Assembly: GCF_004011835.1 (NCBI RefSeq)
Contig: NZ_RKLN01000003.1
Span: 620,001-684,000 of the forward strand
DNA length: 64,000 nt
DNA from: Rhodococcus spongiicola
GTDB taxonomy: Bacteria > Actinomycetota > Actinomycetes > Mycobacteriales > Mycobacteriaceae
Reading direction: 5' to 3'
The first letter of the stretch is position 1; each line of letters opens with the position of its first letter. Made by a program: the position numbers and the translations under genes. The notes beneath the pieces were generated by a model. That model saw only the letters and a program-made list of their open reading frames with translations, had not been told where the DNA came from and did not search any database. Of this stretch, positions 12,037 through 64,000 are shown piece after piece.

Positions 12037-12047
12037 GAGAGTTCACG

Positions 12048-13274: not shown

Positions 13275-13319
13275 TCGTCTCCCCGTTCTCCTCATCCAAT
13301 CGCATGTCCGATCGAATGT

Positions 13320-13757
13320 TCACTCGACAGATTCCGAAACACTACGGGCGCTGGCGGCGGTGCCGCCAATAGATCCCGTGGCGGTGCCGCCAATGCAGAC
13401 CGCGGCGGTCACGCCATTCGTCACTCGCTTGGTCAGAACCAGCGGGCCACCGTTCGCGGCGAGCATCGCGGCGGCCTCTGCCACGCTAGGCGTGCCGACC
13501 GCACTCTCGACACCACCTTCGGGGTTCGGCACAGTCACGGCTGCGAGCCGGTCGGCTGGGTAACCGACGAGCACAGCGCCGAGCGCCTCCGCCGCCTCCA
13601 CGAACGCCGGCGCGGACACCTTCCGGTCCAGTGTCGCCAGTACCGCGACCGGTGCACCGCCGCACACCGCCAGAACGGCGGCGACGATGTCGTCGGCGGC
13701 GACTCCGCTGCCGGCACCCACACCGACACAGAGCATATCCACGGGCGGCTTATCCAC
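13320..13757 (-). CDS. cobE: Cobalamin biosynthesis protein CobE / CbiG C-terminal-like
   Basis: A 145-residue protein of the CobE/CbiG C-terminal family, which acts in the ring-contraction stage of corrin synthesis (opening or handling the precorrin-5 lactone). Family marks are GVGAGSGV near the N-terminus, the central ATLDRKVSAPAFVEAAEALG helix, and a Gly/Ala-rich end. The GTG start at 13757 overlaps the cobB stop by 8 bp and has GGAGG 7 bases upstream; reading further upstream would only duplicate cobB bases. Its tight coupling to cobB supports the assignment. The C-terminal repeat GGTATGSIGGTA is low in complexity. Confidence 0.75.
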   Translation of the reverse strand: MDKPPVDMLCVGVGAGSGVAADDIVAAVLAVCGGAPVAVLATLDRKVSAPAFVEAAEALGAVLVGYPADRLAAVTVPNPEGGVESAVGTPSVAEAAAMLAANGGPLVLTKRVTNGVTAAVCIGGTATGSIGGTAASARSVSESVE

Positions 13758-15767: not shown

Positions 15768-15806
15768 GTGCAGGTCCCTTTCTCGGACTCGACGACTGCT
15801 GGCGGG

Positions 15807-17753
15807 TCAGGCGGCGGCGCGGACGACGCCGGCCACTTGTTGCGCCGACAGTTCCGCAAGGCGCACGTAGCCGCCGCGCAGGTGGTCTGCCAGTTCGGCG
15901 GCCAGGCCGAGCCGGACCATGCCGGTTTCGCAGTCCACGACTATCGACGCGGCGCCCGTGTCGGCAAGCATGCCCGCGGCCCGCTTCGCGCGCACTACAG
16001 CATCCGTGCCGCCAGTCGCCCGCCCGTCGGTCAGCGACACCACCAGTGCCCGACGACGCGGATCCCGAACCCGCTCGCGCAGCACGACGCTGCGAGCACG
16101 CAGGAACCCCTCGGCGAGGGGGGTGCGGCCTCCGGTCCTCATCGCGCGCAGCCGTCGCACCGCGACCTCGACCGACGACGTGGGCGGAAGCACCAACTCG
16201 GCGTCACGGCCACGGACGGTGACGACGGCTACCTTGTCCCGGCGCTGGTACGCATCCCGCAGCAGCGACACGACGGCCCCGGTCACCGCGGTCAGCCGGT
16301 CGCGCGCGGCCATGGAACCCGACGCGTCCACCACGAACAACACCAGATTGCCCTCACGGCCCTCCCGCACACCACCGCGAATATCACTGGGCGCCAGGCG
16401 CATCGGACCGTTCACACGTCCGCGGGCGGACTGATGTCCGGCAGCCGCGAACAGTGTGCCGACCAAATGCAGACCGCTGCCTCGTTCGGTCGTCGAGCGG
16501 ACGGTGCGGCCGCGGGTGGAGCGGGAGCGGGAGCGACGGCCCGGGGCCCCGTCGCCGACACCAGGGATCTCGAGCAGCCGCGCCCGGAACTGCGGACCGG
16601 GCGCGCCGACCCGTCGTTCCGATCCTTGACCGTTGTCGCGTGACTCCTGTTCGCTGGAACCGTTTTTCGGTGTCTCTTTGGGGGCCTCGTTGGAGGCCTC
16701 GTTCTGGGGCTCGGAGGGGTTCTCGCCGCCACCGGGACCGTCGGGATCGGGCTCGGGATCCTCGTCGGCATCCTCGTTGGCATCCTCGTTAGCGCGGGCG
16801 TCGTTGTCTGCCTTCTCCATCGCGTCGTCGAGCTGCTCGGGGTCGAGCCCAGGCTCGTCGAACGGGTCTCGCCGACGCCGGTGCGGCAACGTCAGTTCCG
16901 CGGCCATCCGCACGTCCTCCTCGGCCACCGCGTCGGCACCCCGCCAGGCGGCGTGTGCGGTCGCGGTCCGGGCCAGGACCAGGTCAGCACGCATGCCCTC
17001 GACGTCGAACGATGCGCACACCGAGGCGATGCGCCGCAGTTCGGTGTCGGACAGTTCGACGCCGTCCACGGCAACCCGGGCGGCGGCGATCCGGCGGGCC
17101 AGGTCGGCGTCCTGCTCGGCGTAGCGTGCAGCGAACAAGTCGGGATCGCGCTCGTAGTCGAGGCGTCGACGCACCACCTCCATGCGCACGTCCACATCTC
17201 GGGACGCGGCGACGTCGACGGCCAGACCGAAGCGATCGAGCAGCTGCGGCCGCAGCTCGCCCTCCTCGGGGTTCATGGTGCCCACGAGAACGAAGCGAGC
17301 TGGGTGTGAGTGCGAGATGCCATCGCGTTCGACGTGGACGCGGCCCATGGCGGCTGCGTCGAGGAGGACGTCGACCAGGTGGTCGTGCAGGAGATTGACC
17401 TCGTCGACGTAGAGCACGCCCTGATGCGCGTCGGCGAGCAAGCCCGGTTGGAAGGCGTGCTCGCCGTCACGGAGCACCTTCTCGAGGTCGATGGAGCCGA
17501 CGACCCGGTCCTCGGTCGCGCCCACCGGCAGTTCGACCAGCCGGGCCCGGCGCCGCTCCCCCGAATGCTCGACTTCGGGTAGCAGCGCGGTGAGCGCCCG
17601 CACGACCGTGGACTTCGCGGTGCCCTTCTCCCCGCGGACCAGCACGCCACCGATGCCGGGGTGGACGGCACACAAGATCAGCGCCAACCGGAGCCGATCC
17701 TGTCCGACTATTGCACTGAATGGGAACCCTGCGGGCTCTGGGTTGTGACGCAA
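15807..17753 (-). CDS. Fused AAA+/VWA metallochelatase subunit (ChlI-ChlD type), probably for cobalt
   Basis: An ATP-driven motor subunit for metal insertion into a tetrapyrrole. Residues 10-310 are a BchI-like AAA+ ATPase with Walker [10 protein letters not shown] (41-49) and Walker [15 protein letters not shown]. Residues 330-400 are an acidic, Pro/Asn/Glu-rich linker. From about 455 there is a VWA domain with a MIDAS DASGS motif ([13 protein letters not shown]) and a later [14 protein letters not shown] and D functions are therefore in one 648-residue chain. The start is a TTG at 17753 with only a weak upstream AAGGGA, so the start is uncertain. No CobN-size partner lies in the window. Position in a cob run argues for cobaltochelatase rather than magnesium chelatase. 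Confidence 0.88.
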
Positions 17754-17801
17754 CTACCGAGTCCCTTCGCTTCTACCGGGCTTCGACGGAGGGCTCGACC
17801 G

Positions 17802-19334
17802 TCAGGCGGACGCGGACTCGACCACGCGCTCGGCCGTCGGGGGCGTCGCGTCGGCACCGTCGAGCAGGAGCGAACGGTTGCTCCAATCCCAGACCTGCTG
17901 GAAAAGGTCCGGATTGTCCGACAGTTGCACACCCAGCGACGGGACCATCTGCTCGAGCTTCGGCTTCCACGTCTCGAACTCGCGGGGGAAGCAGCGCTGC
18001 AGAACGTCGAGCATTGCGGGAACCGCCGTCGACGCACCGGGGGACGCGCCCAGCAGACCCGCCACGGTGCCGTCCGCAGCATTGACGACGGCAGTGCCGA
18101 ACTCGAGGACGCCGCCGGCGCCCTTCCTGCGGATGACCTGCACGCGCTGACCGGCGGTGATGAGCTCCCAGTCGCCGCCGGTGGCGCGGGGCACGAATTC
18201 GCGCAGAGTCTGGATGCGGTCGAACGGCGTCTGCATCAGCTCACCGATGAGGTACTTGGTCAGCCCCAACTCGGTGATGCCGACGCCGAGCATCGAAGTG
18301 AGGTTGTTCGGCTTTACCGAGCCCGGCAGGTCGGTGACCTTGCCGTTCTTGAGGAACTTGGGCGACCAGCCGGCGTACGGGCCGAAGAGCAGTCCCTCTT
18401 GGCCCCCGATGATGCGGGTGTCGAGGTGCGGCACCGACATCGGAGGTGCACCGACGGCGGCCTTGCCGTACACCTTGGCTCGGTGCTGCGCGATGAGCTC
18501 GGGGTTGGTGCAGCGCAGGAACTGACCGCTGACCGGGAAACCGCCGAAGCCCTTGGCCTCCTTGATGCCCGACTTCTGCAGCAGGTGCAGGGCTCCACCA
18601 CCGGCGCCGATGAACACGAACTTGGCGTTGACCGTCTTCTTGGCGCCAGTGCGAAGGTTCCTCACCTTCACGAGCCAGCTGCCGTCGGCCTGTTTCGTCA
18701 GGTTGCGGACCTCGTGGCCGAAGAACACCTGACCGCCGGATGCGCCGACGTAGCCGAGGAGTTGCTTGGTGAGGGCGCCGAAGTCGACGTCCGTGCCGGA
18801 CTCGGTCCAGTTGAGGCCGACGGGCTCGGAGAAGTCGCGACCCTTGGCCATGAGCGGCAGTCGCTCGGAGAAGAACTCCTCGGACTCCGAGTACTCCATG
18901 CCGGCGAACAGCGGATGGTCGGCGAGCGCGTCGTAGCGGGCGCGTAGGTACTTCACGTTGTCGGCGCCGTGCACGAAACTCACGTGCGGAATCGGGTTGA
19001 TGAACTCCTTGGGATCGGTGAGGATCCCGTTGTCGACGGCGTATGCCCAGAACTGACGAGAGACCTGGAACTGCTCGTTGACGGTGATCGCCTTGCTGAT
19101 GTCGACACCGTTACCCTTGACCGGGGTGTAGTTGAGCTCGCACAGAGCGGAGTGGCCGGTACCCGCGTTGTTCCACGGATCACTGCTCTCTGCGGCGGCG
19201 GCGTCGAGTCGCTCGAATGCTGTGATCGACCAGTCGGGCTGCACCTGACGCAGGATCGCGCCGAGGGTTGCACTCATGATGCCCGCACCCACGAGCACTA
19301 CATCGGTCTTCGCCACTACGTTCTGGTCTGACAC
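17802..19334 (-). CDS. mqo: Malate:quinone oxidoreductase
   Basis: A membrane-associated FAD enzyme that oxidises L-malate to oxaloacetate and reduces quinone, bypassing NAD-dependent malate dehydrogenase. The 510-residue length fits the Mqo family. The N-terminus has the FAD Rossmann motif [17 protein letters not shown] and the family block [35 protein letters not shown] is another Mqo hallmark. The start is GTG at 19334, preceded by AAGGAAG 11 bases upstream. It lies 48 bp upstream of the chelatase gene on the same strand and is divergent from the hydrolase across a 169-bp gap. Confidence 0.96.
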
Positions 19335-49944: not shown

Positions 49945-50502
49945 CTAAACCTCCATCAATTCTGCTTCCTTGTGCTTGACCAACTCGTCGACCTGGCCGA
50001 CATACCGCGAGGTGGTCTTGTCGAGCTCTTTCTCCGCCCGCACGACCTCGTCCTCCCCGGCCTCGCCCTCCTTCTGGATCCGCGAGAGCTCGTCCATCGT
50101 CTTGCGGCGCACGTTGCGGATGGAGACCTTGGCGTCCTCGCCCTTGCCCTTGGCTTGCTTGACGAACTCGCGGCGGCGCTCCTCGGTCAGCTGCGGAACC
50201 GAGATGCGGATGAGCGAGCCGTCGTTGGTCGGGTTGACGCCCAGATCGGAGTTGCGGATCGCGTTCTCGATCGGACCGAGCTGCGATGCCTCGTACGGCT
50301 TGACCACGACAAGCCGCGCCTCGGGCACGTTGATGCTCGCGAGCTGTGTGATCGGAGTCGGCGCACCGTAGTACTCGACGACGATCCGGTTGAACATGGC
50401 CGGGTTCGCACGGCCGGTCCGGATCGTGCTGAGGTCGTCCTTCGCAACCGTGATGGCCTTCTCCATCTTCTCCTCGGCCTCGAAGAGAGCTTCATCAATC
50501 AC
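49945..50502 (-). CDS. frr: Ribosome recycling factor
   Basis: Splits post-termination ribosomes together with EF-G. 185 residues; the RRF signature [13 protein letters not shown] lies near residue 28 and the rest is two long coiled-coil helices with a small beta domain. GTG 50502 has GGAGG 7 bases upstream. Standard position between pyrH and cdsA. Confidence 0.97.
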
Positions 50503-50569
50503 GGCTGTTCCTCCGTCTCATTCCAGTCAAGCTCGAATACGTCCCACATAATGATCGTCCTGCACGACA

Positions 50570-51298
50570 TCATGATTTGACCAATGTCCCGATCTTCTCA
50601 CCGGAGACTGCCCTCGCGATGTTGCCCTCGGACAGGAGGTTGAAGACCATGATCGGCATCTGGTTGTCCATGCAGAGGCTGAACGCCGTGGCATCGGCAA
50701 CCTTGAGCCCCTTCTCGATGACCTCGCGGTGGGTGATCTCGGTGAACAACGTGGCATCTGGATTGACGCGCGGATCCGCGGAGTAGACACCGTCGACGGC
50801 CTTCGCCATGAGGACCACTTCGGCGCCGATCTCGAGGGCGCGCTGTGCGGCGGTGGTGTCGGTGGAGAAGTAGGGCATTCCCATGCCCGCACCGAAGATG
50901 ACGACCCGGCCCTTCTCGAGGTGCCGACGGGCCCGCAACGGAATGTACGGCTCGGCGACCTGTCCCATGGTGATGGCGGTCTGCACCCGGGTGTCGACAC
51001 CCTGCTTCTCCAGGAAGTCCTGCAGTGCAAGGGAGTTCATAACCGTTCCGAGCATGCCCATGTAGTCGGAGCGCGCACGCTCGAGACCTCGCTGCTGCAG
51101 TTCGGCTCCACGGAAGAAGTTGCCGCCACCGATCACGACGGCGACCTGCACCCCTGAGCGGACCACCTCGGCGATCTGCTCCGCAACCGTCGTCACGACG
51201 TCCGGATCGAGACCGACCTTGCCGCCGCCGAACATTTCACCGCCGAGCTTGAGGAGCACGCGTCGGAATCCTGGGCGTTCGTCGGCCGCTGCGGTCAT
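50570..51298 (-). CDS. pyrH: UMP kinase
   Basis: A hexameric amino-acid-kinase-fold enzyme that phosphorylates UMP. 242 residues from ATG 51298 (GGGAG, 5 bases upstream). Blocks [41 protein letters not shown] and [14 protein letters not shown] are typical. The frame is open upstream to 51406 but lacks conservation. The 266-bp gap to tsf shows no gene or clear terminator; it probably holds the pyrH promoter. Confidence 0.97.
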
Positions 51299-51564
51299 GG
51301 CTCTCCCTCGGTTCTGCGATCGTTCGGTTCTAGAAGTACTACAGCTCGGCGAGCGAGTCCCCGGGTCCGCGGCCGCTTCAGCAGGACGGCGAGGCGCCCG
51401 GAGCACGCACTGTCATCCTGCCTCATCCGACGGTGGTCGACCCACGTGCCCCACCCGCCGCAGAGGTCGGCCCCGCACGGAACGGAACGGGCGGACTGCC
51501 GGTTCGGGAGACCCGGAATCGACTGCACCCATCCGGCCGGCGGGGCCGATGTGTCAGACCGTGA

Positions 51565-52389
51565 CTAGCTGGCGCCGACCTCGAACCGCACGAAGCGGGT
51601 GATCGTGGCACCGGCGTCGCTCAGGAGTGCCTTGACGGTCTTCTTGGAGTCGGTGACCGAGGACTGCTCGACCAGGACGACATCCTTGTAGAAGCCGTTG
51701 ACGCGACCCTCGACGATCTTCGGAAGCGCAGCCTCGGGCTTGCCCTCCTCCTTGGCCGTCTGCTCGGCGATACGACGCTCGTTCTCCACGATGTCCGCGG
51801 GGACGTCGTCGCGGGTCAGGTACTTGGCCTTCAGAGCCGCGACCTGCATGGCAGCGCCACGGGCAGCCTCGGCAGCGGCCTCGCCCTCGCCCGAGTATTC
51901 GACGAGCACGCCGACGCCCGGCGGCAGGTCGGAAGCACGCTTGTGCAGGTAGGTCGCGACAGCACCATCGAACGAGACGACGCGACGCAACTCGAGCTTC
52001 TCACCGATCTTGGCGGAAAGCTCCTGGACCAGGGTGTCGACGGTCTTGCCGTCGACCTCGAGAGCCTTGAGCGCCTCGAGGTCGCCGGGCTTGGCGGCAG
52101 CAGCCGCGGTGACGATCTTGTCGGCCAGCTCCTGGAACTCCGCGTTCTTGGCGACGAAGTCGGTCTCGGCGTTGATCTCGATCATGACGCCGTCCTTGGC
52201 GGCGACAAGGCCCTCGGCCGTGGTGCGCTCGGCGCGCTTACCCACGTCCTTGGCGCCCTTGATGCGCAGGAGCTCGACGGCCTTGTCGAAATCGCCCTCG
52301 GTCTCGGTGAGCGCGTTCTTGCAGTCCATCATTCCGGAGCCGGTGAGCTCGCGGAGCCGCTTGACATCAGCGGCGGTGTAGTTCGCCAT
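51565..52389 (-). CDS. tsf: Translation elongation factor Ts
   Basis: The nucleotide exchange factor for EF-Tu. 274 residues from ATG 52389, with GAGGAGG 10 bases upstream. N-terminal UBA-like helices contain [16 protein letters not shown]; the catalytic TDFVAKN block, which inserts into EF-Tu, is at about residue 77. It follows rpsB by 114 bp, a gap that holds a hairpin. Confidence 0.97.
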
Positions 52390-52470
52390 TGGGGGCGATC
52401 CTCCTCGGATGAGTTTCGATGCCAGCCTCGAGCGGATCCCGTCGGAGCCTGGCGAAACAGGTGAGTGAAA

Positions 52471-53670: not shown

Positions 53671-54240
53671 ATGGGGTCTGCTTCTCGCATCATCACCCGG
53701 ATCGGCGTCGTGCTGACGGCCGTCGTCGTCAGCTCCTCGCCTGCCGCCGCCGGGCCGGCCCGCGCGCCTGCTCCCCCGCAAGTCGTCGCGTTTCCCGGTG
53801 ACGCTGTCCGTGCGACGTATGACTGGCCCCTACACCCGCGACCGCGGGTCGTACGGTCCTTCGACAAGCCCGCACAGAACTGGTTGCCCGGACATCGCGG
53901 AGTCGACCTGGCTGCCGCGCCGGGGCAGCGCGTGCTGGCAGCCGGCGCCGGTACCGTCGTGTTCGCTGGAGCGGTCGCCGGCAGACCCGTCGTCTCAGTC
54001 GATCACCCCGGCGGGCTGCGGACAACGTACGAGCCTGTCGAGCCGAGCGTGACCGCGGGGCGCCGAGTCGGCCGCGGTGACCTGCTCGGCACCGTGATTG
54101 TCGGTCATCCCGAATGCGCCGCGACCGCTTGCCTGCACTGGGGGCTTCGCCGGGATCGCGAGTACCTCGATCCCCTGCCCCTGGTTCGGGCCGTTCCCAT
54201 TCGCCTGCTTCCGACCGGTACCGGTCAGGCTCGCGGATGA
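53671..54240 (+). CDS. Secreted M23-family (LytM-like) peptidase with altered HxH motif
   Basis: A predicted cell-wall protein, 189 residues from ATG 53671, with GGGAGG 8 bases upstream and a Sec signal peptide ending near residue 30 ([10 protein letters not shown]). The single LytM domain has the first zinc motif H-x3-D in GHRGVDLAA and Gly-rich strands with GTVVFAG. The usual H-x-H is C-L-H in ATACLHWGL: the metal-binding last His is kept but the first, catalytic His is Cys. The mycobacterial neighbour of rpsB (Rv2891, from memory) shares this feature, so it may be a subfamily trait. Activity as an endopeptidase is uncertain; it may bind or regulate. The 3' end overlaps xerC by 16 bp, tail to tail. 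Confidence 0.85.
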
Positions 54241-55163
54241 GCCTGGTCGTGCGCCGCCCGCAATCGCGCCACCGATACGTGCGTATACAGCTGCGTCGTG
54301 GCCAGGCTCGCGTGTCCGAGTACCTCCTGCACCACCCTCAAGTCGGCACCACCTTCGACAAGGTGGGTCGCGGCCGAGTGCCGCAACCCGTGAGGCGCGA
54401 GGTCCGGCAGACCCGGCACCGCGCGAACGACCTCGTGAACCACCCTGCGTGCCTGACGCTGATCGAGGCGACCTCCACGCCGTCCGAGGAGCAGAGCGTC
54501 ACCAGACCGTTCGTTCGCGAGCGCTTGGCGCCCCTTCCGCATCCACGCGGTGATCGCGTCCTCCGCGGGACGCCCGTAGGGGACGACGCGCTCCTTGTTC
54601 CCCTTGCCCAGCACCCGCAGGACGCGCCGACAGCCGTCGACATCCCCGACGTCGAGGCCACACAGTTCACCGACTCGTATCCCGGTCGAGTACAGCACTT
54701 CGACGATCAGGCGGTCCCGCAGCGCCACGGGATCCTCTTGTGCAGCACCGGATTCTGCGGCTGCCATCGCATCTGCAGCCTGTTCCTGCCGCAACACCGG
54801 CGGCAGCGTGCGGTGCGCCTTCGGGGCCACCAACCGGATCCCCGGGTCGACTGCAATCCGACCGGTCCGCTGGGCCCAGGCGGTGAATCCCTTGGCCGAC
54901 GATGTCCTCCGTGCGAGTGTGGTTCGGGCGACCCCTGCGGTGGCCTGCCCGCCGAGCCAACTGCGCAACGTCCGCAGGTCGAGTTCCTCGAGAGTCGCGC
55001 CGGGACAGTCGGTGCAGAGGTATTCGAGCAGACTCGTCACGTCCGCGAGGTACGCGCGCACGGTGTGCACCGAACGGTCCCGTTCGAGGCGAAGATACTC
55101 GGCGTAATCGTCGAGGTGCGCCCGCAATGCGGACGTCAGCTCGGGGCTCGGGGCGGCACTCAC
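54225..55163 (-). CDS. xerC: Tyrosine recombinase XerC
   Basis: Resolves chromosome dimers at dif together with XerD. 312 residues from GTG 55163; an upstream frame start at 55232 lies inside the preceding gene. Catalytic residues are Arg in STGIRVGEL, His-x-x-Arg in [11 protein letters not shown], His in GHASLATTQ and Tyr in QLYTH. An N-terminal SAM-like DNA-binding domain spans about 15-95. It starts 11 bp after the GIY-YIG gene's stop. Position between rpsB and dprA marks it as the housekeeping recombinase, not a phage integrase. Confidence 0.93.
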
Positions 55164-55174
55164 GACATTCGCCG

Positions 55175-56308
55175 TCAGCGCCCGTGCGGACGTGCCAGCG
55201 TCAGGCGCTGGACCCAGCCGTGCGCGGGCCACGCTTTCAGCCCTGCCCGGTCAGGAGTGACGCGGGTTCCGACGAAGCGGCCCTCGAGCTCCGGGTCGAC
55301 GGCGCCCGTGAAGCGCCACTCCTGCTCTCCCGCAGCACCCACCGCTTCCCATGAACTGGCGCGATAGACCGCGCGAACGATGTTGTCCGCGAAAACGATC
55401 ACCGGCAGGTCGGCGACGTTTCGCGCCGCGGCCCCGGCGCGCCAGGGCCCTCGGGCGAGGGCGTACAGTTCCTCTGCTGTCAGCCCTCGGCCGGCGGCGG
55501 CCGGCACGCGGATCAACGCGCCCGGGACCGGGAGGTCCGGCGCCTCCTGCGCGGAGTACTGGGCCGACAACTCCATGACCGACATGGCCCTGTTCTCGCG
55601 GTCGTCCGGTTCGCCGGCGAGGTTGGTGAGTACCGGATGGCCCGGGTGGTGTTCGAGTAGACGCAGCGCGTCGACCACAACGTGCGTGAGCTCCTTTGCG
55701 GCGGGCTCGGCACCGTGAACGGCGTCGATTCGGTGCCGAAGCACGATGTGGTCGACCGAGTGTCCGGCCGCGTAGATGTCTCGGATGCGCTGGATCCAGG
55801 CGGCACGTGTCTCGTCGCGATCAGTGTCACCCACCCCCTCCCCGTCGAGAGTTCCCGCCTCACCCAAGGCATCCCAATCGAGCGAGTAGATCTTGTTCCC
55901 TCGCCCGACCCCGACGTAGAAGATCGAACGATCGCGCGGATCCCGCAGGGCATATACGTACAGACCGAGATTCTCGACCACGCGAGGGGACAGCGGGTTC
56001 GGTGCGGGCTTGCGTTCGCGCGACTCTGCGGTGATCACGCGCATCACCGCCAGACGCAAGGCGTCGGAGACGACGACGCTACCGATCGCGGGGCCATCGA
56101 ACAACACCGCTGCCGCGTCCCGCACGGACGTGAATGTCCGGCCCGCGTTCAAATGCAGGGAGTTGACCACCGCGGTGAACTCCACGAGGCGGACCTTGGG
56201 ATCGCTCGCCGCTCCGCGACCCTCGTCGTTCGTGAGGAAGTCACGGATACCAGGAGCGGCCAGGAGCACACGGGTGATGTCTTCGGGAACGGTCCAGACG
56301 GTAGCCAT
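55175..56308 (-). CDS. Protein with LEM-3-like GIY-YIG nuclease domain
   Basis: 377 residues from ATG 56308 (a weak ribosome site; the frame is open to 56401). Residues about 115-240 match the GIY-YIG pattern of the LEM-3-like group: [24 protein letters not shown], a basic/aromatic helix ending in WIQRIRDIY, and a Glu-containing [17 protein letters not shown] block. GIY-YIG domains cut or nick DNA. The N-terminal 110 residues and the C-terminal 120 (an alpha/beta domain with [21 protein letters not shown]) are unrecognised. It lies 11 bp before xerC on the same strand, so a DNA-processing role is plausible but not shown. Confidence 0.7.
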
Positions 56309-56399: not shown

Positions 56400-56459
56400 A
56401 CTGAATCGTTCTCTACCCGATATCGGCCGCTGAAGCCGATCTTCCGTCACACTCGACTC

Positions 56460-56993
56460 GTGACGCGATCTGTGGAATCGACGGAAGACCGGGCGAGTCG
56501 CGCCCGGCGGTTGGTCGGCTTCAGCTACCGCATGCCCGATTACTACGAGGTGGGCAGAGAAAAAGTGCGAGAGTTCGCCGCCGCCATACAGAACGATCAC
56601 CCGGCGCACTACGATGAAGAGGCTGCCCACGCTCTGGGCTATCCCACGCTGCTCGTACCCCCCACTTTCATCTCGGTCATCGGCGCAATCGCCCAGAAAT
56701 ACCTGCTCGAGCAGATCATCACCGGGTTCGATCTGAGCCAGATCCTCCAGACCGACCAGAAACTGATCTTCCACCGGCCGCTGTTCGCCGGCGACCGCCT
56801 GACGGTCGACGTCTCCCTCGAATCATTCCGGCAGACTGCCGGCACCGACATCTTCGTGACGAAGAACTTCGTCACCGACGAAGCCGGTGAACCTGTAGTG
56901 ACATCATTGACCACACTCGTCGGACGGGCGGGAACCGACCAGGATCCGGACCGCATCCGACGGATCAAGGACGTGATGATGCGAGAGGCGTGA
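56460..56993 (+). CDS. HadA-like (UPF0336) hot-dog dehydratase
   Basis: A MaoC-N-terminal/hot-dog fold protein related to mycobacterial HadA and HadC, the substrate-binding subunits of the FAS-II 3-hydroxyacyl-ACP dehydratase. 177 residues from GTG 56460. The UPF0336 pattern YYEVGREKVREFAAAIQNDH is at about residue 28, PPTFISVIG and FHRPLFAGDRLTV follow. HadA/C-type subunits lack the catalytic Asp/His pair held by HadB, and I see no HadB gene here, so a partner elsewhere is needed. The start has no ribosome site; a TTG inside could instead be used. It may be controlled by the operator at 56373-56399. Confidence 0.8.
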   Translation: MTRSVESTEDRASRARRLVGFSYRMPDYYEVGREKVREFAAAIQNDHPAHYDEEAAHALGYPTLLVPPTFISVIGAIAQKYLLEQIITGFDLSQILQTDQKLIFHRPLFAGDRLTVDVSLESFRQTAGTDIFVTKNFVTDEAGEPVVTSLTTLVGRAGTDQDPDRIRRIKDVMMREA

Positions 56994-57000
56994 GGCGTGA

Positions 57001-57078
57001 GACCCGAACAGATCACCTCGCTCGAAATTAACCCGTCTCGTCCGAGCCGACGAATCCGTCCAGTCCCATGACCGGAAG
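57001..57078 (-). pseudogene. Copy of the dprA 3' end
   Basis: 78 bases matching 61099-61176, the last codons of dprA and the bases after its stop, with nine mismatches (88% identity). Read on the minus strand it gives LPVMGLDGFVGSDETG, then a stop in place of Trp, then FRAR. It begins 7 bp after the HadA-like stop, and weak homology reaches back to about 56991. Its upstream side joins a frameshifted ArsR-like gene instead of dprA. Confidence 0.88.
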
Positions 57079-57084
57079 GGGTAG

Positions 57085-57215
57085 CGGTGGCGATCGCGTC
57101 GACCGTGCGCTCGCCTTGACCAGAAGATCGAGGATCTGCAATCGGCGCCGTGGCCGAGCGCCGTCCCGACCCGTGCGATCTGGTCGTAGAGGGCTGTCGC
57201 TTTGCGATCGGGCAT
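57085..57215 (-). pseudogene. Frameshifted, truncated ArsR-family regulator
   Basis: On the minus strand an ATG at 57215 starts MPDRKATALYDQIARVGTAL, the usual N-terminus of ArsR regulators. The homology then needs a frame change to read RLQILDLLVK and another for GERTVDAIATAT, which together are the start of the winged helix. The rest is replaced by the dprA tail. It was probably the regulator of the sulfur genes on its right. Confidence 0.72.
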
Positions 57216-57348
57216 GTCACCCACCTTGCTTATCCAATACTTCATGGACTAACGTATCGGTGTCGCCGAGGGCACGCGACTGGCTGCCAGCCTGTTCAGT
57301 CGCTGCTTGCGATCACCGGACCACAGACGTCGGCTACCAGGGGAACTG

Positions 57349-57702
57349 GTGAAGTACCTCTTCGTTTTGAACGATCCACCCTACGGAACCGAACGCACAT
57401 TCAACGGGATCAGATGGGCCCGTCAGATGCTCGAGAGCGATCCGGGCAACGAGGTTCGGGTATTCAACTTCGCTGACGCGGTGATATCGGTCAGTGCCGG
57501 GCAGAAGGTTCCCACCGGCTACTACAACCTGGCCAAGATGACGTCGGCGCTGGTTGAGAAGGGTGGGGTCATCGGCAACTGCAGCGCCTGCATGGACGCC
57601 CGCGGCCTGACCGACGACCGCCTGATCGACGGGGTGCATAGATCATCCATGGCAGAGTTGGCGCAGTGGACGGCCTGGGCCGACCAAGTCATCACGCTGT
57701 GA
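57349..57702 (+). CDS. DsrE/DsrF-like sulfur-relay protein
   Basis: 117 residues from GTG 57349, with AGGGG 5 bases upstream. It has the DsrE/YchN fold pattern: YLFVLNDPPYGTERTFNGIRWA at the N-terminus and the cysteine motif IGNCSACMDARGL near residue 80, where one Cys would carry persulfide sulfur. Soluble, no signal peptide. Intact, in contrast to the wrecked genes around it. Its neighbours (ArsR remnant, oxidoreductase remnant, cysteine desulfurase) fit a sulfide or persulfide handling cassette. Confidence 0.8.
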   Translation: MKYLFVLNDPPYGTERTFNGIRWARQMLESDPGNEVRVFNFADAVISVSAGQKVPTGYYNLAKMTSALVEKGGVIGNCSACMDARGLTDDRLIDGVHRSSMAELAQWTAWADQVITL

Positions 57703-57721
57703 GGCCGAGGAAGCGAATGTG

Positions 57722-57914
57722 ATGACTAGAACCGTTGTGGTGCTCGGCTCGGGTGTCGGCGGTTCGACTGCAGCCCCAGAACGTCGTGCGAGCCTTCCCG
57801 GCATCGATACCGGCACCCGCACCGTGTGGTTTGACAGCGGGCCGATCCGACTGCCAGACCGAGAAAGAACTGCAGGAACGTGAGTGGCTCGCGCGCTGGA
57901 ACGCGCGCACCTGA
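57722..57914 (+). pseudogene. Remnant of an FAD-dependent oxidoreductase, sulfide:quinone reductase-like
   Basis: The start reads MTRTVVVLGSGVGGSTAA, a classic FAD Rossmann N-terminus. After about 18 codons the homology is lost. A tail in another frame, EKELQEREWLARWNART and a stop at 57912-57914, looks like the end of the same gene. The middle, over 1 kb in intact relatives, is deleted. The sulfide:quinone assignment rests mainly on the DsrE and ArsR neighbours. Confidence 0.55.
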
Positions 57915-57930
57915 TCGGCGAGGCCGTCCT

Positions 57931-58252
57931 GTGGAGGTGCATCGCTTCGCTTGCCACCTCTCGCGTGGATGTACGGCCGCCGTCTCCATCTCGCGTCGTT
58001 GCATGCTGATCGATACCGGACGTGAGCTGGTGCTCGTGGGCACCGATCCTCCAGATCGTGTTCCCACCGAGGAGTCCGTCGGAGACGGCGGAGTACCACG
58101 TACGCCGGCTCGGCTACTGGCCGCACGCGGTAGCCCATATCCTGGTCTCCAGTGGTCACCTCGCGCAGGTCGGCGACCTGGGAGACTTTCGCCGGGCAGC
58201 TGTCCACGTCTGTGCAGAAGAGCTTGTGGACGGCATGTTCACCGGACGCCCG
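57931..58252 (+). pseudogene. Broken metallo-beta-lactamase-fold hydrolase
   Basis: From GTG 57931 one frame gives VEVHRFACHL...CMLIDTGRELVLVGTD, the N-terminal strand pair of an MBL hydrolase. After a frameshift near 58060 another frame gives YHVRRLGYWPHAVAHILV, then SSGHLAQVGDLGDF where the zinc motif T-H-x-H-x-D-H should be, then AAVHVCAEELVDGM. The metal ligands are lost and the C-terminal half is missing. It could have been a lactonase or a persulfide dioxygenase. Confidence 0.65.
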
Positions 58253-58400
58253 CCACCCGACAATCGGCTCTCGGCGCTGGCACTCGCCATCATGGCGGCC
58301 ACACCCCGAGACACTGCGACCCTGACATCGATACCTGCTGGCCGGCTCTCCGATGGCAGCCGATCGGCCCGATCCGAACCTGCAACGCCGAAGGATGACC

Positions 58401-59585
58401 ATGCCCCACCCGGTAACCAATCAGAGGACACCTTCCGCAGCACCTCCGGACGATCGACCCGTCTACCTCGACTATCAGGCCACCACCCCCATTGATCCGC
58501 GTGTCATCGACGCGATGCTGCCCTACCTGACAACGCATTTCGGCAACCCGTCGAGTGATCACGCCTATGGCGCCAAGGCCAAAGCCGCCGTCGAGAGTGC
58601 ACGATCGCAAGTTGCGGGTCTCATTGGTGCCCAGCCTCATGAGATCGTCTTCACAGCATCGGGAACAGAAAGCAACCATCTTGCACTGACCGGGACCGCA
58701 CACACCTTGAGGTCCAGCGGCTGCGGACATCACATCATCATCAGCGCGATCGAACACCCCACCACCCAAGCCACGTGCGACCAACTCGAGCATGATGGCT
58801 TCGAGATCACTCGGCTCCCCGTCCGTCCAGACGGTCTGGTCGACCCCGAAGTTTTCGCCGAAGCTGCACGCCCGGACACCGTCTTGGCGTCGATCATGCT
58901 GGCCAACAACGAAATAGGAACCATCCAGCCGATATCAGCCATCTCTCGAATCGCGCATGAGCGTGGAATAGTGATGCACACCGACGCAGCACAGGGCCCT
59001 GCCACCATCCCAGTCGATGTCGAGGCACTCGGCGTCGATCTGCTCACCCTCGTCGGTCACAAGATGTATGCGCCGAAAGGAGTGGCAGCACTGTACATCC
59101 GTGATGGGTGCCCGGCACCGCAGCCTCAGCTCGTCGGAGGCGGCCAGGAGCGCGGACTGCGCGCGTCGACGGAGAATGTGGCCGGCATCGTCGGTCTCGG
59201 TGCGGCTGCCAACATCGCGCGGACAGCCCAGCCGAGTGATTCCGCACGCATCCTTAGCTTTCGGGATCGGTTGCTCGATCGTCTCACCACGGCGTTGCCG
59301 GAGCTGATTGTGAACGGATCGCTCACGCATCGCTTGCCTGGAAACCTCAGCCTCACCATCCCGACGGTGACTGCATCCGAGCTGATGTCCAGAACCCCAG
59401 CGCTGGCCTTTTCCGCGGGGAGCGCATGCCATACCGCAGACCCGGCCCCATCACCGGTTCTCGTGGCGATCGGACTCGACGGCGACAAAGCAGCCCGAAC
59501 CGTTCGGCTCGGAATCGGCCGCTATACGACTATCTCCGACATCGCCAATGCCGCCGACCGAATGATCGCGGCCACGCAGCGTTGA
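58401..59585 (+). CDS. Cysteine desulfurase (class V aminotransferase, NifS/IscS type)
   Basis: A PLP enzyme that takes sulfur from L-cysteine as an enzyme-bound persulfide. 394 residues from ATG 58401 (AAGG, 6 bases upstream). Marks are YLDYQATTPIDPRV at the start, His/Asp of the PLP pocket in HTDAAQGPATI, the Schiff-base Lys in LVGHKMYAPKG, the RAST block (LRASTENVAG), and the catalytic Cys in FSAGSACHT. No iscU, iscA or suf gene is adjacent, so it is an accessory desulfurase rather than the main Fe-S supplier; DsrE upstream could accept its sulfur. Confidence 0.92.
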   Translation: MPHPVTNQRTPSAAPPDDRPVYLDYQATTPIDPRVIDAMLPYLTTHFGNPSSDHAYGAKAKAAVESARSQVAGLIGAQPHEIVFTASGTESNHLALTGTAHTLRSSGCGHHIIISAIEHPTTQATCDQLEHDGFEITRLPVRPDGLVDPEVFAEAARPDTVLASIMLANNEIGTIQPISAISRIAHERGIVMHTDAAQGPATIPVDVEALGVDLLTLVGHKMYAPKGVAALYIRDGCPAPQPQLVGGGQERGLRASTENVAGIVGLGAAANIARTAQPSDSARILSFRDRLLDRLTTALPELIVNGSLTHRLPGNLSLTIPTVTASELMSRTPALAFSAGSACHTADPAPSPVLVAIGLDGDKAARTVRLGIGRYTTISDIANAADRMIAATQR

Positions 59586-59614
59586 GGAATTCGCCCGACC
59601 ACAGAGGAGTTCCT

Positions 59615-59686
59615 GTGAGTGCATTCAGTGCGACCGCGGTGTCGATGTCAGGGCCGTGGACGAAGGCGCCGTCGAGTGGCGCGTGA
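59615..59686 (+). CDS. Possible 23-residue peptide between the desulfurase and MFS genes
   Basis: GTG 59615 has GAGGAG 5 bases upstream, a better ribosome site than those of many genes here, and the frame closes at 59684-59686, 19 bp before the MFS start. The peptide (VSAFSATAVSMSGPW...) has no recognisable feature. It could be a leader peptide, the remnant of a longer gene, or chance. Confidence 0.25.
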   Translation: MSAFSATAVSMSGPWTKAPSSGA

Positions 59687-59705
59687 GCAAGGGAGGTCGA
59701 TCTCG

Positions 59706-60974
59706 GTGTCACGTGATGACGCACAGGTCGCGGACGTGATCGTGCCCGATGAAGCCGAGCGCCGCCGAGTACAGAAGCGCACCCTGATCGTTGTCGTCGT
59801 CAGTCAGGTCCTCAGTGGTGCCGGTCTGACGGCGGGAGTCACGGTCGGTGCGCTCCTGGCGCAGCAGATGCTCGGTTCGGACACCCTCGCGGGTCTGCCG
59901 ACCGCGTTGTTCACTCTCGGTTCTGCGCTGGCGGCGTTCCTGATCGGTCGCTTCTCCCAGACACACGGCCGAAGGATCGGACTCGGGCTCGGATTCGGCG
60001 CCGGCGGTGTCGGTTCCATCGGGGTGGTCTTGGCCGCGATCAGTGAGAGCGTGCCCCTGCTGTTCATTTCGCTCTTCGTGTACGGCGCCGGGTTCGCAGC
60101 CAATCTCCAGGCGCGCTATGCCGGAACCGATCTCGCGCCTCCCGAACGGCGAGGCACCGCGATCAGTATCTCGCTGGTATCCACGACCGTCGGCGCCGTC
60201 GCAGGGCCGAATCTCGTGGAGCCGCTCGGCGACCTCGCGACCTGGCTCGGTCTGCCGGCGTTGTCAGGACCGTTCCTCCTAGCGGCGGTCGCCTATCTGG
60301 GCGCCGGCGCTGCTTTGGTCACCCTGCTGCGCCCGGACCCGCTCCTACTGGCCCGCCGAATCGAAGTCGGTGCCCCGACCACGACCTCCGTGGGCGCTGT
60401 CGCCGCGAAAGTCGGAGTGGGTGCGTACGTCGGCGCCACCGTCATGTTCCTCACACAGGTGGCGATGATCGCGATCATGACGATGACCCCTGTGCACATG
60501 GCGGCCCACCATCACGGACTCGGGGACGTCGGGCTGGTGATCGGCATCCATGTCGGGGCAATGTATCTGCCCTCACTGATTACGGGTGTCCTCGTCGACA
60601 AGCTGGGACGTCTACCCATGGCGGCCGCTTCGGGATTGACTCTGCTGCTCGCCGGCATCGTCGCTGCGCTTGCGCCTGGTGAGTCGCTCATCCTGATGAT
60701 CGTGGCGCTGGCTCTACTCGGTATCGGCTGGAACTTCGGCCTCATCGCCGGTACTGCCCTCATCGTCGATGCCACGGTCCCCGAGAACCGGGCCCGAACT
60801 CAGGGAAAGATCGACGTTCTCATCGCACTCGCCGGTGCTGGGGGAGGAGCCCTGTCCGGTGTGGTGGTGTCGGCGGCCAACTACGAAACCCTCTCCCTCA
60901 GTGGCGGAATCCTGGCGTTGGTTCTCATACCTGTCCTTTTCTGGGCCCGCAGCGGCCGAACCGCGCGTTCCTGA
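59706..60974 (+). CDS. MFS transporter, 12 helices
   Basis: 422 residues from GTG 59706, with GGGAGG 9 bases upstream. About 12 hydrophobic segments; a motif A-like RFSQTHGRRIGLG loop lies after helix 2 and DKLGRLPMAAASG after helix 8. The N-terminal 25 residues are charged and cytoplasmic. Substrate unknown; the family includes drug and small-molecule exporters. It is the last gene of the island and ends 115 bp before the dprA tail repeat at 61099. Confidence 0.82.
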   Translation: MSRDDAQVADVIVPDEAERRRVQKRTLIVVVVSQVLSGAGLTAGVTVGALLAQQMLGSDTLAGLPTALFTLGSALAAFLIGRFSQTHGRRIGLGLGFGAGGVGSIGVVLAAISESVPLLFISLFVYGAGFAANLQARYAGTDLAPPERRGTAISISLVSTTVGAVAGPNLVEPLGDLATWLGLPALSGPFLLAAVAYLGAGAALVTLLRPDPLLLARRIEVGAPTTTSVGAVAAKVGVGAYVGATVMFLTQVAMIAIMTMTPVHMAAHHHGLGDVGLVIGIHVGAMYLPSLITGVLVDKLGRLPMAAASGLTLLLAGIVAALAPGESLILMIVALALLGIGWNFGLIAGTALIVDATVPENRARTQGKIDVLIALAGAGGGALSGVVVSAANYETLSLSGGILALVLIPVLFWARSGRTARS

Positions 60975-61110
60975 AACGGCTCCCACCTACGAGAACCGGG
61001 GCCTCGCCTTGCCGCGCCCGTACGACGGTCAATCGAGCTACGCCTTCCACCGCATCGGCTACCCACACGGCGTACCGCACCCTGGGTGTGAGCCGTGAGA
61101 CCCGACGGGA

Positions 61111-62232
61111 TCACCTCGCTCGAAACCAACCCGTCTCATCCGAGTCGACGAATCCCTCCAGTTCCATGACCGGAAGTACGGCCCGTACCCGCTCGATCGG
61201 AACACCGGAATCCACCGACAACTCCCGGGTGCCGCGCGTGCCGTTGGCCGGCAACGCCTCGTAAACCGCGGCGGCGTCACCAGTGAGAACGTCGAGATCT
61301 CGGGCCAGATCACCGCTGTCGCCATCCACCCCCATCGGTCCTGCTTCCTGCACTACATCCGCCGCGCTCGCCGCCAACAGCGCCTCACCCTCCCGGATCA
61401 TTCGGTGGCACCCAGTAGAGGCAGCAGATGTGACCGGCCCCGGTACCGCCAGCACCGGGCGCCCCAGGCGACGCCCCCACGCGGCGGTGTTCCGTGCCCC
61501 GCTGCGCCAGCCCGCTTCCACAACCACGACACCGCCCGACAACCCCGCCACCAACCTGTTCCGGGCCAGGAAGCGGTACCTCGCCGGCGTCGTTCCGGGC
61601 GGATACTCGCTGACTACGGCTCCGTCTGCCGCGATCTGCTGCAGCAACCGACCGTGCCCCGCCGGATACGCACGATCCACTCCGCACGCGAGAACCGCGA
61701 CAGTGAGCCCGCCCGTCCCGAGAGCGGCCCGGTGCGCGGCCGCATCGATACCGAACGCCGCACCGGACACGATCGTCCAACCGGAGGCTGCCAGGTCGCC
61801 GGCGATCTCGGCTGTCACGTGCTCGCCGTAGGAACTCGCGGCGCGGGTGCCGACCACCGCCACCGACCGAGACACCAGTTCGTCTACCGAACGACTGCCG
61901 AGCACCCACAGCGCCACCGGGCCGCCGTCGTCGCGGGCCTCGCCGAGAGCATCGAACGCCAGCAACCGCCAGCGTGGCCACTCCTCGTCGTCCGGTGTCA
62001 CCAGTCGCCCTCCCATCGACGCCAACAGGTCCAAGTCGCGGGCGGAGGTGTCGAGGTGCGCCCTTGCTGACGTTCGCCGGTCGAGGAAACTCGACAGATC
62101 TCGCTCCCGGACGGCACGCGCGGTCTCCTCCGGCCCTACGGCCGAGACCAACTGCGACAGCGGTGGGCACGGTCCCTGCACCACCTTCGACAGATAGGCC
62201 CACGCCAACAGTCGCGGGTCGTACCCGGTCAC
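61111..62232 (-). CDS. dprA: DNA-processing protein DprA
   Basis: Binds incoming single-stranded DNA and loads RecA during transformation; widespread even in species not known to be competent. 373 residues from GTG 62232, which overlaps the comM stop as GTGA. The Rossmann-like DprA core is intact: TIVSGAAFGIDAAAHRAAL, GVDRAYPAGH, and NRLVAGLSGGVVVVEAG with SGARNTAAWG. A C-terminal winged-helix-like segment ends in LEGFVDSDETGWFRAR. A 78-bp copy of its 3' end lies 4.1 kb away at 57001-57078. Confidence 0.94.
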   Translation of the reverse strand: MTGYDPRLLAWAYLSKVVQGPCPPLSQLVSAVGPEETARAVRERDLSSFLDRRTSARAHLDTSARDLDLLASMGGRLVTPDDEEWPRWRLLAFDALGEARDDGGPVALWVLGSRSVDELVSRSVAVVGTRAASSYGEHVTAEIAGDLAASGWTIVSGAAFGIDAAAHRAALGTGGLTVAVLACGVDRAYPAGHGRLLQQIAADGAVVSEYPPGTTPARYRFLARNRLVAGLSGGVVVVEAGWRSGARNTAAWGRRLGRPVLAVPGPVTSAASTGCHRMIREGEALLAASAADVVQEAGPMGVDGDSGDLARDLDVLTGDAAAVYEALPANGTRGTRELSVDSGVPIERVRAVLPVMELEGFVDSDETGWFRAR

Positions 62233-63737
62233 GGGGCACCGCGGTCGCGAAACCCGAGCGCGGCCCCTACCTGGCCGGAACCCGGGGAGCTCAGGCCGGC
62301 CAGGTCTGCGAGGGACCACGCGACCCGGAGCGCGCGGTCGGCTCCCCTCGCAGTGACGGACCCCCGGCGGAGGGCACGTTCGAGCGGGGCCAGAGCATCA
62401 CGGGAGAGCCGGAAGCGTTGGCGCAGTGCCGGACCCGGAACCTCCGCATTGGTGTGCCAACCGAACGGCCGCCAGCGCTCGGCCGCGGCAGCACGCGCGG
62501 CCGCCACCCGACACCGCACCTCCTCGGTACTCTCCCCCACCCCGTCCATGAACACACCCGTCGCGACTGCTCGCATCCGGATCCGCAGGTCGACGCGATC
62601 CAGCAAGGGCCCGGACAGACGCCCGAGATAGCGGCGCCGGACGGCCGGCGCGCACACGCAGTCGGCCTCACGCGCCGGCGCGCACGGGCACGGGTTGGCC
62701 GCCAGTACCAACTGGAAGCGTGCCGGGTACCGCGCGACGCCGTCCCGACGGGCAATACGCACCTCGCCGTCCTCGAGCGGAGTCCGCAACGCCTCGAGCG
62801 CCTTCGTACCCATCTCGGCACACTCGTCGAGGAAGAGAATCCCGCGATGCGCCCGGCTCACCGCCCCGGGTTTGGCCAATCCACTACCGCCACCGACCAG
62901 GGCGCTCACCGACGACGTGTGGTGCGGCGCGATGAAAGGGGGTTCGGTGATAAGGGGACGGTCCGACGTGAGCAGTCCCGCGACCGAGTGAATTGCCGTG
63001 ACCTCCAACGCCTCCGACTCGGACAGTGCCGGGAGGATCCCCGGCAGTCGCTGTGCCAGCATTGTCTTCCCGATGCCGGGCGGTCCGGTGAACATGAGGT
63101 GGTGGGCACCGGCTGCCGCGACCTCGATCGCCCAGCGTGCGTCCGATTGTCCGACTACCTCACTGAGATCAGCTCGCGTCGTGGCACTCTCGGGGTTGAA
63201 GAGTTCCGGACTCGGGAGCTGGCCACTGCCCTGCAGCCATTCGACGACCGCGGCGAGCCGATCCGCGCCGAGTACCTCGATGCCGTCGACGAGGCCTGCC
63301 TCGGCGAGCGCATGCATCGGCACGACCGCCGTCGCCCAACCGGCCTTCTTCGCGGCGAGCACCGCCGGCAGCACACCGCGCACCGTCCGCAATCGGCCGT
63401 CGAGCGCCAGTTCCCCCAGCAGGACGGTCTTCTCGAGCCGCCCGCGCGGAACCTGACGGGCCGCGTCGAGCACCGCGCAGGCGAGCGCGAGATCGTAGAC
63501 ACTGCCGACCTTGGGTAGTGTCGCCGGCGACAGCGCCAGCGTCACCCGCGAGTCAGGCCACTTGGCACCCGAGTTGGTCACCGCCGCGCGCACGCGATCC
63601 CTCGACTCCTGGAGCGCCGTGTCCGGCAACCCCACCAGGTGCACACCCGGCAACCCCCGCCCGATATCCGCCTCAATCTCGACGATCTGCCCGTCAACCC
63701 CGCTGACCGCCACCGAATGGGCGCGCCCGAGCGCCAT
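62229..63737 (-). CDS. comM: ComM/YifB-family AAA+ protein (Mg-chelatase-like)
   Basis: A hexameric helicase-like ATPase that promotes branch migration during natural transformation. 502 residues. An N-terminal Lon-substrate-like domain (SVAVSGVDGQIVEIEADIGRGLP) precedes the AAA+ core with Walker A GPPGIGKTM (about residue 220) and Walker B ILFLDECAEM; a C-terminal Mg_chelatase_C segment follows with four cysteines (CPCAPAREADCVC). ATG 63737 shares one base with the yraN stop (TGATG). yraN-comM-dprA form a coupled unit. Confidence 0.94.
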   Translation of the reverse strand: MALGRAHSVAVSGVDGQIVEIEADIGRGLPGVHLVGLPDTALQESRDRVRAAVTNSGAKWPDSRVTLALSPATLPKVGSVYDLALACAVLDAARQVPRGRLEKTVLLGELALDGRLRTVRGVLPAVLAAKKAGWATAVVPMHALAEAGLVDGIEVLGADRLAAVVEWLQGSGQLPSPELFNPESATTRADLSEVVGQSDARWAIEVAAAGAHHLMFTGPPGIGKTMLAQRLPGILPALSESEALEVTAIHSVAGLLTSDRPLITEPPFIAPHHTSSVSALVGGGSGLAKPGAVSRAHRGILFLDECAEMGTKALEALRTPLEDGEVRIARRDGVARYPARFQLVLAANPCPCAPAREADCVCAPAVRRRYLGRLSGPLLDRVDLRIRMRAVATGVFMDGVGESTEEVRCRVAAARAAAAERWRPFGWHTNAEVPGPALRQRFRLSRDALAPLERALRRGSVTARGADRALRVAWSLADLAGLSSPGSGQVGAALGFRDRGAP

Positions 63738-64000
63738 CAAAATACCGCCGGCAGGTGGGTGACCTGCGGGTCTCGCCCTCGATCGACGAGCACCGACACG
63801 ACGTCGAACCGCACATGCGGCCAGTGTCGTTCAGACTCGGACAGCCACCGCTGCGCCAGCATCCGGATGCGGCGCTGCTTTGCGTACGTCACCGACTCGG
63901 CCGGGCTCCCGTACCCCAGCCCGGAGCGGGTCTTCACCTCCACGAACACGACGGTGTCACCGTCAACGGCAACCAGATCCAGCTCGCCGTGCCGACACCG
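63737..64000 (-). CDS. yraN: YraN/UPF0102 nuclease-fold protein, 5' end outside window
   Basis: The C-terminal 87 residues of a UPF0102 protein; the frame is open to the window edge with no start. The conserved GELDLVAVDGDTVVFVEVKTR carries the acidic E-x-K pattern of restriction-endonuclease/Holliday-junction-resolvase folds. The stop overlaps the comM start by one base. Same order as in mycobacteria (Rv2898c-Rv2897c-Rv2896c, from memory). Confidence 0.93.
   Translation of the reverse strand, partial: RCRHGELDLVAVDGDTVVFVEVKTRSGLGYGSPAESVTYAKQRRIRMLAQRWLSESERHWPHVRFDVVSVLVDRGRDPQVTHLPAVF

Follow-up and report, generated by a model that had tools for sequence, protein, structure and literature searches.

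Genomic islands and prophages can reside at the 3′ ends of protein-coding genes, as exemplified by e14 or phage 21 in icd. Here we describe a locus of Rhodococcus spongiicola in which an island with sulfur-related genes lies at the 3′ end of dprA, within a stretch of 64,000 nucleotides (contig NZ_RKLN01000003.1, positions 620,001 to 684,000) that we call the window. As with the islands and prophages just mentioned, a direct repeat of the gene tail is present on both sides, the host gene is whole, and the displaced tail has decayed. However, no recombinase was found, the repeat includes the end of the convergent neighboring gene, and the insert ends inside a gene. Another difference is that the repeat copies resemble the host's own tail in R. 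xishaensis, R. coprophilus, and two other genomes of the family Mycobacteriaceae (G106 and G300).

Transposons likewise leave a duplicated target on both sides of the inserted DNA, and this duplication is usually 2-14 bp long. In the window and in R. xishaensis, the duplicated segment instead measures 92 to ~127 bp, and no transposase was found in the island. A local tandem duplication with later insertion or deletion, as seen in G300, also yields a dprA tail duplicated in the same orientation, whereas the window has a short duplicated unit and an interval of other DNA.

Competence genes such as comM have been described as insertion sites of mobile elements (PMC4774983). There is a likeness to these elements, given that dprA is also a competence/recombination gene and that two genomes (G010 and G020) carry elements inside it. 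The window differs in that its dprA gene is intact and the insert has no mobility gene that we could find. In the portion of that paper available to us, dprA appears only in the reference list. Likewise, titles and the opening parts of abstracts yielded no report on insertions at the dprA 3′ end, which is no proof of absence in print.

An Insertion between a HadA-like Gene and dprA

The repeat copies that bound the island are located at 56987-57078 and 61085-61176. A repeat search of the window found them to be 92 bp long, 88% identical, in direct orientation, and 4098 bp apart from start to start, with 4,006 bp of sequence between them. BLAST aligns the two with 11 mismatches and no gap (E 4.85e-28), and the sequence is found at 2 places in the whole 3.97-Mb assembly. 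A preliminary description of this DNA had noticed a same-orientation tail repeat flanking the interval, although its length of 78 bp was too low. The copy adjoining the stop codon of the HadA-like gene holds a displaced and decayed dprA tail (57013..57078, minus strand) of 22 codons with an in-frame TAA. The copy on the other side (61085..61176, no strand) includes the end of dprA (61111..62319, minus strand), which is itself intact and matches PF02481 and TIGR00732 above their cut-offs. The HadA-like dehydratase gene (56460..56993, plus strand) is convergent with dprA and matches NF040624 (HadA) at 219.9 bits, with the cut-off at 180.

We compared this locus among 14 genomes of the genus sample, which includes the window genome, R. 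hoagii, Prescottella equi, and other Prescottella species. Of the 13 other genomes, 12 are free of the island. The nearest relative among the genomes searched is R. xishaensis LHW51113 (G004), whose dprA is 95% identical. In each of the 12 island-free genomes, dprA lies next to the HadA-like gene in convergent orientation, and the match ends are 8-76 bases apart, where the upper value comes from G009, a frameshifted assembly in which the HadA-like match ends early. Even in G010, where dprA is interrupted further up, the tail of the gene adjoins the HadA-like gene. None of the 12 has a second dprA tail, as judged by a search down to E 10 and a tail scan, with the dprA pieces in G009 and in G010 counted as one broken gene each.

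The island and a second tail occur together only in the window genome and R. xishaensis, and the whole island is likewise confined to these two, which are 95% identical over 3,978 of its 4,006 bases. Among the remaining genomes, eight match the MFS part or nearby stretches of 24-36 bases, and four match nothing. Because the site is empty in 12 of the 12 other genus genomes, the interval between the repeat copies is an insertion, as the preliminary description had proposed in calling it foreign to the core order. The HadA-like gene is part of the local core rather than of the island, because it adjoins dprA where the island is missing. Among the 14 genomes, we saw neither an island with a single tail nor a repeat without an island.

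The Duplicated Segment Spans Two Gene Ends

The sister genome reveals more of the duplication than does the window. In R. xishaensis, the dprA-side copy extends past the intergenic bases and takes in ~41 bp from the end of the HadA-like gene, identical to the true end, and the repeat pair aligns over 128 columns with 4 mismatches and 8 gap columns. As read from these copies, the duplicated unit is ~127 bp long and straddles two convergent gene ends, rather than being an attachment site within dprA only. The corresponding target segment in the window (56953..57078, no strand) would comprise the HadA-like end, the intergenic bases, and the dprA tail, with its extent taken from the R. xishaensis copies. 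The part still recognizable on both sides in the window is the 92 bp at 56987-57078; in the dprA-side copy, the HadA-like portion is no longer recognizable beyond ~7 bp.

The insert ends inside a gene. Adjacent to the repeat is a frameshifted N-terminal remnant of an ArsR gene (57079..57216, minus strand), recognized by tblastn with an intact paralogue (locus L199). It consists of two pieces in different frames that cover residues 17-72 of the paralogue, and it is truncated at 57079, where the repeat begins, in both the window and R. xishaensis. The ArsR junction is the same in the two genomes, and a derived change from GAA to GGA, read by eye from the letters, is common to the two displaced tails. 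For these two reasons, we consider the displaced tails to share one origin.

The copies also derive from the host's own target, judging from comparisons of the 66-base tail. The window dprA tail differs from the displaced tail at 6 of 66 positions, and the R. xishaensis dprA tail differs from either window tail at 4 of 66. The average difference to other genus members is 19-22 of 66 (12 tails), averages that are inflated by two tails (G013 and G008) that lie one codon out of register.

The explanation that we favor, although with only about even confidence, is illegitimate insertion with target duplication at a recurrent site. In the lineage of R. xishaensis and the window genome, a fragment of ~4 kb would have entered by illegitimate joining at the point where the HadA-like gene and dprA meet 3′ to 3′. 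Joining would have duplicated a target of ~127 bp, which covers the HadA-like end, reaches 66 bp into dprA, and now stands on both sides. One copy completes dprA, and the copy beside the HadA-like gene has decayed. The fragment may have carried part of a sulfide/persulfide-response operon (the truncated ArsR gene, a DsrE gene, a broken oxidoreductase gene, and a desulfurase gene) plus an MFS gene of genus type. The insertion, the duplicated segment, the gene truncated at the junction, and the common origin of the two displaced tails are shown by the sequences; we infer both the role of the operon and the mechanism of joining, which might have been staggered-break, tandem-duplication, or template-switch repair.

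Recurrence at dprA 3′ Ends in Other Lineages

Other dprA genes of the family have duplicated tails as well. When the window and 100 dprA loci were scanned for copies of the tail, long ones turned up in R. xishaensis (L044 and L124, which represent one genome), R. coprophilus (L086), and R. oryzae (L078). We also compared with themselves the 80 best-matching named dprA loci (1,609,704 bases), which were not chosen for repeats, and set the thresholds at 80 bp, 80% identity, 400 bp of separation, and E 1e-15. Three separated direct-repeat pairs emerged, and all three are at the dprA tail (R. xishaensis, R. oryzae, and R. coprophilus). The loci are centered on dprA, which somewhat favors this gene, and R. 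xishaensis was known beforehand, so that two of the three are independent confirmations.

A hidden Markov model (HMM) search was then applied to 401 family genomes from a larger group, 392 of which had a match. The 55 with at least two matches were searched again, with G004, G009, and G134 left out as known. A second match no more than 10 kb from dprA was found in R. oryzae (G049), G106, and G300. This search misses short tails, given that the window genome itself gave only one match. Altogether, duplication of the dprA tail is present in six genomes of five lineages: the window genome and R. xishaensis, R. coprophilus (G134), R. oryzae, G106, and G300. R. oryzae and G106 belong to the same genus and are counted apart because their inserts and repeat limits differ. 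The suggestion that the same tail repeat might surround other cargo was thus borne out in other species.

Relative to the dprA stop, the repeats extend from -65 to +26 in the window, -66 to +53 in R. xishaensis, -97 to -7 in R. oryzae, -160 to +31 in G106, -428 to +14 in R. coprophilus, and -132 to +164 in G300. The copies look host-derived in R. coprophilus and G106 when relatives are compared, and in G300 by identity alone. Those of G106 are 192 bp long and 98.4% identical (3 mismatches), versus 79-81% to relatives. Those of R. coprophilus are 95.1% identical to each other, versus 92.5-92.7% to its relative L084, with 19 gap columns excluded. The G300 copies are 297 bp long and 99.0% identical, and the duplication there runs on into downstream genes, which makes this case a plain segmental duplication. 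For R. coprophilus, we also entertained the idea that the dprA-attached tail is foreign and that the displaced one is native, as the displaced tail plus its flank is 97.5% identical to L084. This idea was dropped in view of the values just given for the tails alone.

The intervening DNA has a different character in each case. R. coprophilus, for which L084 provides an empty site, has an iron-uptake set (FecCD, an ABC protein with a FhuF C-terminal match, and a periplasmic binding protein) along with a DUF7676 protein (L086 11126-17612). An ImmA-like remnant was also noted in that interval (L086 11354-11815), by eye only and with no Pfam match. The R. oryzae interval encodes a DUF2510 protein, and the 944-bp interval of G106 includes pieces whose matches are scattered across other genomes and plasmids.

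As a control, the tails of 1,164 open reading frames (ORFs) in the 80 loci were examined. The control returned dprA of L044 and L078, the HadA-like gene of L044 and one gene of L086 (both belonging to the dprA events described above), and short-range repeats starting 61-135 bp after the gene in L100, L105, and L109. It missed dprA of L086, whose ORF was not called, and therefore we relied on the self-comparison instead. Left out of the count were matches of 18-48 bp, local non-coding repeats (L045/L126, L085, L097, L110, L221, L226, L227, and L237), and second matches that are distant or on another contig. In L226 (G192), a 103-bp stretch located 47-149 bp beyond the stop codon of dprA is repeated at +570 and +1092 (97 and 100%).

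Events of this kind appear to recur at the 3′ end of dprA in the family. Perhaps it is even a preferred place in Mycobacteriaceae for recombinase-free capture of foreign DNA, with the target duplicated and dprA, whose product is a recombination mediator, left whole, but we advance this broader proposal only tentatively and hold it below the insertion model for the window itself. The same tentative standing applies to its corollary that the captured DNA differs each time, comprising sulfur genes, iron-uptake genes, or small unknown genes.

Alternative Origins of the Island

We prefer illegitimate joining to an eroded site-specific element on four grounds: an end of the insert falls within a gene, the repeat spans two gene ends, the tails are host-like wherever this could be judged, except in R. 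oryzae, and the repeat limits vary. Several points weigh against this preference, however. The main argument is that recurrence at one gene end is what would be expected of a site-specific system, and all three repeat pairs in the 80 loci are at dprA. Furthermore, although the limits range from -428 to +164, the stretch from -65 to -7 is contained in every repeat. A foreign tail is possible in R. oryzae, because its two tails (85.7% identical) are no closer than is its dprA stretch to that of R. maanshanensis (87.7%). The truncation of ArsR could also be later decay at the end of an old element.

The strongest rival, which we regard as unlikely but well short of dismissible, is that the island is the eroded remainder of an integrative element whose attachment site was the 3′ end of dprA, or else the HadA-dprA junction, and whose integrase has been lost. 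Such an element would be in keeping with direct repeats at the 3′ end of a gene that stays whole, and with recurrence at the dprA tail in five lineages. The preliminary description had read the flanks as old attachment sites, and the direct gene-end repeat and the empty site do make this possible. It is nonetheless not the best reading, because the repeat holds two gene ends, as is evident from the HadA-like end included in the R. xishaensis copy, and because the junction truncates ArsR, which an attachment site would not be expected to do. The variation of repeat limits between lineages also speaks against it.

No recombinase was found by Pfam among the six island ORFs, in agreement with the earlier remark that no integrase is present, and none among the ORFs run on Pfam from the intervals of R. 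coprophilus (5), R. oryzae (1), and G106 (2). A scan for the tyrosine-recombinase motif up to 12 kb downstream of dprA, which skipped loci with no dprA end, gave one match in 120 listed loci, 9 kb away in L071. It reported no match in R. xishaensis (L044 and L124) and none in the intervals of R. coprophilus, R. oryzae, and G106, a result that extends neither to serine recombinases nor to the G300 interval. The existence of two large serine recombinase elements inside dprA lends some support to an eroded element, but these are inserted near codons 238 and 219 rather than at the tail.

The two elements are unrelated to each other. In G010 (L135 ~2719-12766), a prophage of ~10 kb interrupts dprA near codon 238 and encodes a 571-aa large serine recombinase, a capsid protein, and Gp19-type genes. 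In G020 (L143 ~935-18028), an element of ~17 kb interrupts the gene near codon 219 and encodes RepSA, an FtsK-like protein, and a 476-aa large serine recombinase.

A less probable alternative, to which we assign a distinctly low likelihood, is homologous recombination of a circle or linear fragment that already carried the HadA-dprA junction, such as an island excised in a close relative. Consistent with this route, the repeat copies in R. xishaensis and G106 hardly differ from the tail of the host itself. In addition, the sulfur block is less diverged between the window genome and R. xishaensis than are most of its surroundings, and it may thus have been exchanged after the split. Synonymous divergence (dS) is 0.050 for the desulfurase gene (with a nonsynonymous value, dN, of 0.0115) and 0.078 for DsrE. 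By comparison, it is 0.138 for the MFS gene and 0.215-0.294 for five core genes (xerC, the conserved gene at 55175-56305, the HadA-like gene, dprA, and comM), but rpsB has a value of only 0.093.

Non-coding and remnant parts differ by 1.6-5.2%, two core intergenic stretches by 7.1 and 9.6%, 260 bp at the right end by 6.9%, the stretch after the MFS gene by 19%, and the mostly coding stretch 50000-52400 by only 5.1%. In 300-bp windows, the difference is 1.7-5.7% in 57101-59800, 5.7-12% to the left and 7.3-10.7% to the right of the island region, and 17% at 61001-61300. These values suggest that the sulfur block either was exchanged between the two species after their split or is constrained, and of these we favor exchange.

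Nevertheless, homologous integration needs an earlier event that placed the junction beside the cargo, and no donor came to light. None of 72,556 plasmids covers 80% of 56400-61400, and no match to 56900-61250 was found among 50,697 phage records. Parts of 56400-61400 are matched by 30 plasmid records, two of which, from Streptomyces, match both the desulfurase and MFS genes at 66%; DsrE finds 35 plasmid records, all below 60%. The C-terminal part of dprA finds 36 phage records, all below 60%, 9 loci in viral contigs at 38-80%, and 229 plasmid records, which we take to be the plasmids' own dprA genes.

Transposition was rejected, because no transposase was found by Pfam among the six island ORFs and the target duplication, at the lengths given above for the window and R. 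xishaensis, is too long. Moreover, none of 14 pairs of inverted repeats of at least 20 nt is situated at both island ends; shorter ones were not searched. Chance resemblance or an assembly artefact can be dismissed given the E value of the repeat and the same structure in a second assembly, that of R. xishaensis.

Cargo and Neighboring Genes

Next to the ArsR remnant, the island encodes an intact DsrE family ORF (57349..57702, plus strand; PF02635), followed by the two ends of a sulfide-reductase-like FAD oxidoreductase gene (57722..57911, plus strand). The latter were detected by tblastn, with residues 373-391 at E 2e-6 and residues 1-35 weakly at E 0.19. A possible metallo-beta-lactamase-fold remnant (57930..58340, plus strand) was proposed by eye, and its two ORFs have no Pfam match. 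An intact cysteine desulfurase ORF of NifS/IscS-like type (58398..59585, plus strand) matches PF00266, whereas the NifS and IscS models fall below cut-off. Last is the MFS transporter gene (59706..60974, plus strand; PF07690, ORF 59619-60974). The functions first assigned to the cargo therefore stand for DsrE, the desulfurase, and the MFS transporter; ArsR and the oxidoreductase are remnants, and the metallo-beta-lactamase remains a visual call.

DsrE is present in 2 of 301 family genomes (E<=1e-15) and in 8 of 394 genomes of the class, including the window genome, with the best outside matches in G524 (64%) and G567 (62%). The best relative of the desulfurase outside the two genomes, among 61 genomes, is 47% identical. 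The MFS gene, however, has homologues with 76-77% DNA identity at another place in three genus genomes (G002, G003, and G009), and thus not all of the cargo is foreign, contrary to what had been supposed. No MFS gene at that other place was among the matches listed for the window genome and R. xishaensis. With an MFS gene of genus type beside its sulfur genes, the island is composite.

GC content, the calculation of which had been suggested, is 64.2% for the island and 67.1% for the window. The island value lies between those of the neighboring HadA-like gene (61.2%) and dprA (70.0%), so that GC hardly discriminates, and it was dropped as a mark of foreign origin.

The sulfur genes resemble ArsR-controlled gene sets in G524 and L193, which we take to be sulfide/persulfide operons. 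There, DsrE and an ArsR-rhodanese gene point away from each other, an oxidoreductase gene comes after DsrE, and a desulfurase-like ORF adjoins ArsR. In the island, by contrast, ArsR and the oxidoreductase are broken. The G524 oxidoreductase has a sulfide-dehydrogenase domain match, and its best NCBIfam model, sulfide quinone reductase, is below cut-off; the G524 ORF resembling a desulfurase is called by likeness only. Elsewhere on the window's contig (126.3-128.3 kb; L199 7329-9316), there is a full-length pair of ArsR-rhodanese and oxidoreductase genes that is paralogous to the broken island genes.

The surrounding genes belong to the core. The xerC gene (54225..55232, minus strand; Phage_integrase and Phage_int_SAM_1 in Pfam) keeps its place in the local gene order in 13 of the 13 other genus genomes. 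Between xerC and the HadA-like gene in all 13 is a conserved gene (55175..56305, minus strand; two pieces in G009) that appears GIY-YIG-like by eye only and has no Pfam or NCBIfam match. The gene beside dprA in the compared loci (62229..63740, minus strand) is presumably comM.

Several side observations concern these neighbors. A 57% relative of the HadA-like gene, perhaps the usual HadA, is on another contig. The xerC gene and the conserved gene touch (~55178-55232) in the window and R. xishaensis, and a gap of ~1.3-2.2 kb separates them in the 12 other genus genomes, which is a second local difference of this lineage. In Rhodococcus sp. CH91 (L080 11134-14633), comM is split by ~1.9 kb.

Implications

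Gene-end repeats around islands are commonly read as the attachment sites of lost integrases. Here, the sister genome R. xishaensis shows that the repeat is a duplicated target that extends over two genes, and a scan of loci unselected for repeats finds the same gene end struck repeatedly. If the hot spot is real, then dprA 3′ ends would allow very young events to be caught, such as that of G106 with its 192-bp copies and 3 mismatches. They would also offer a way to work out how island-like DNA enters actinobacterial chromosomes with no recombinase involved.

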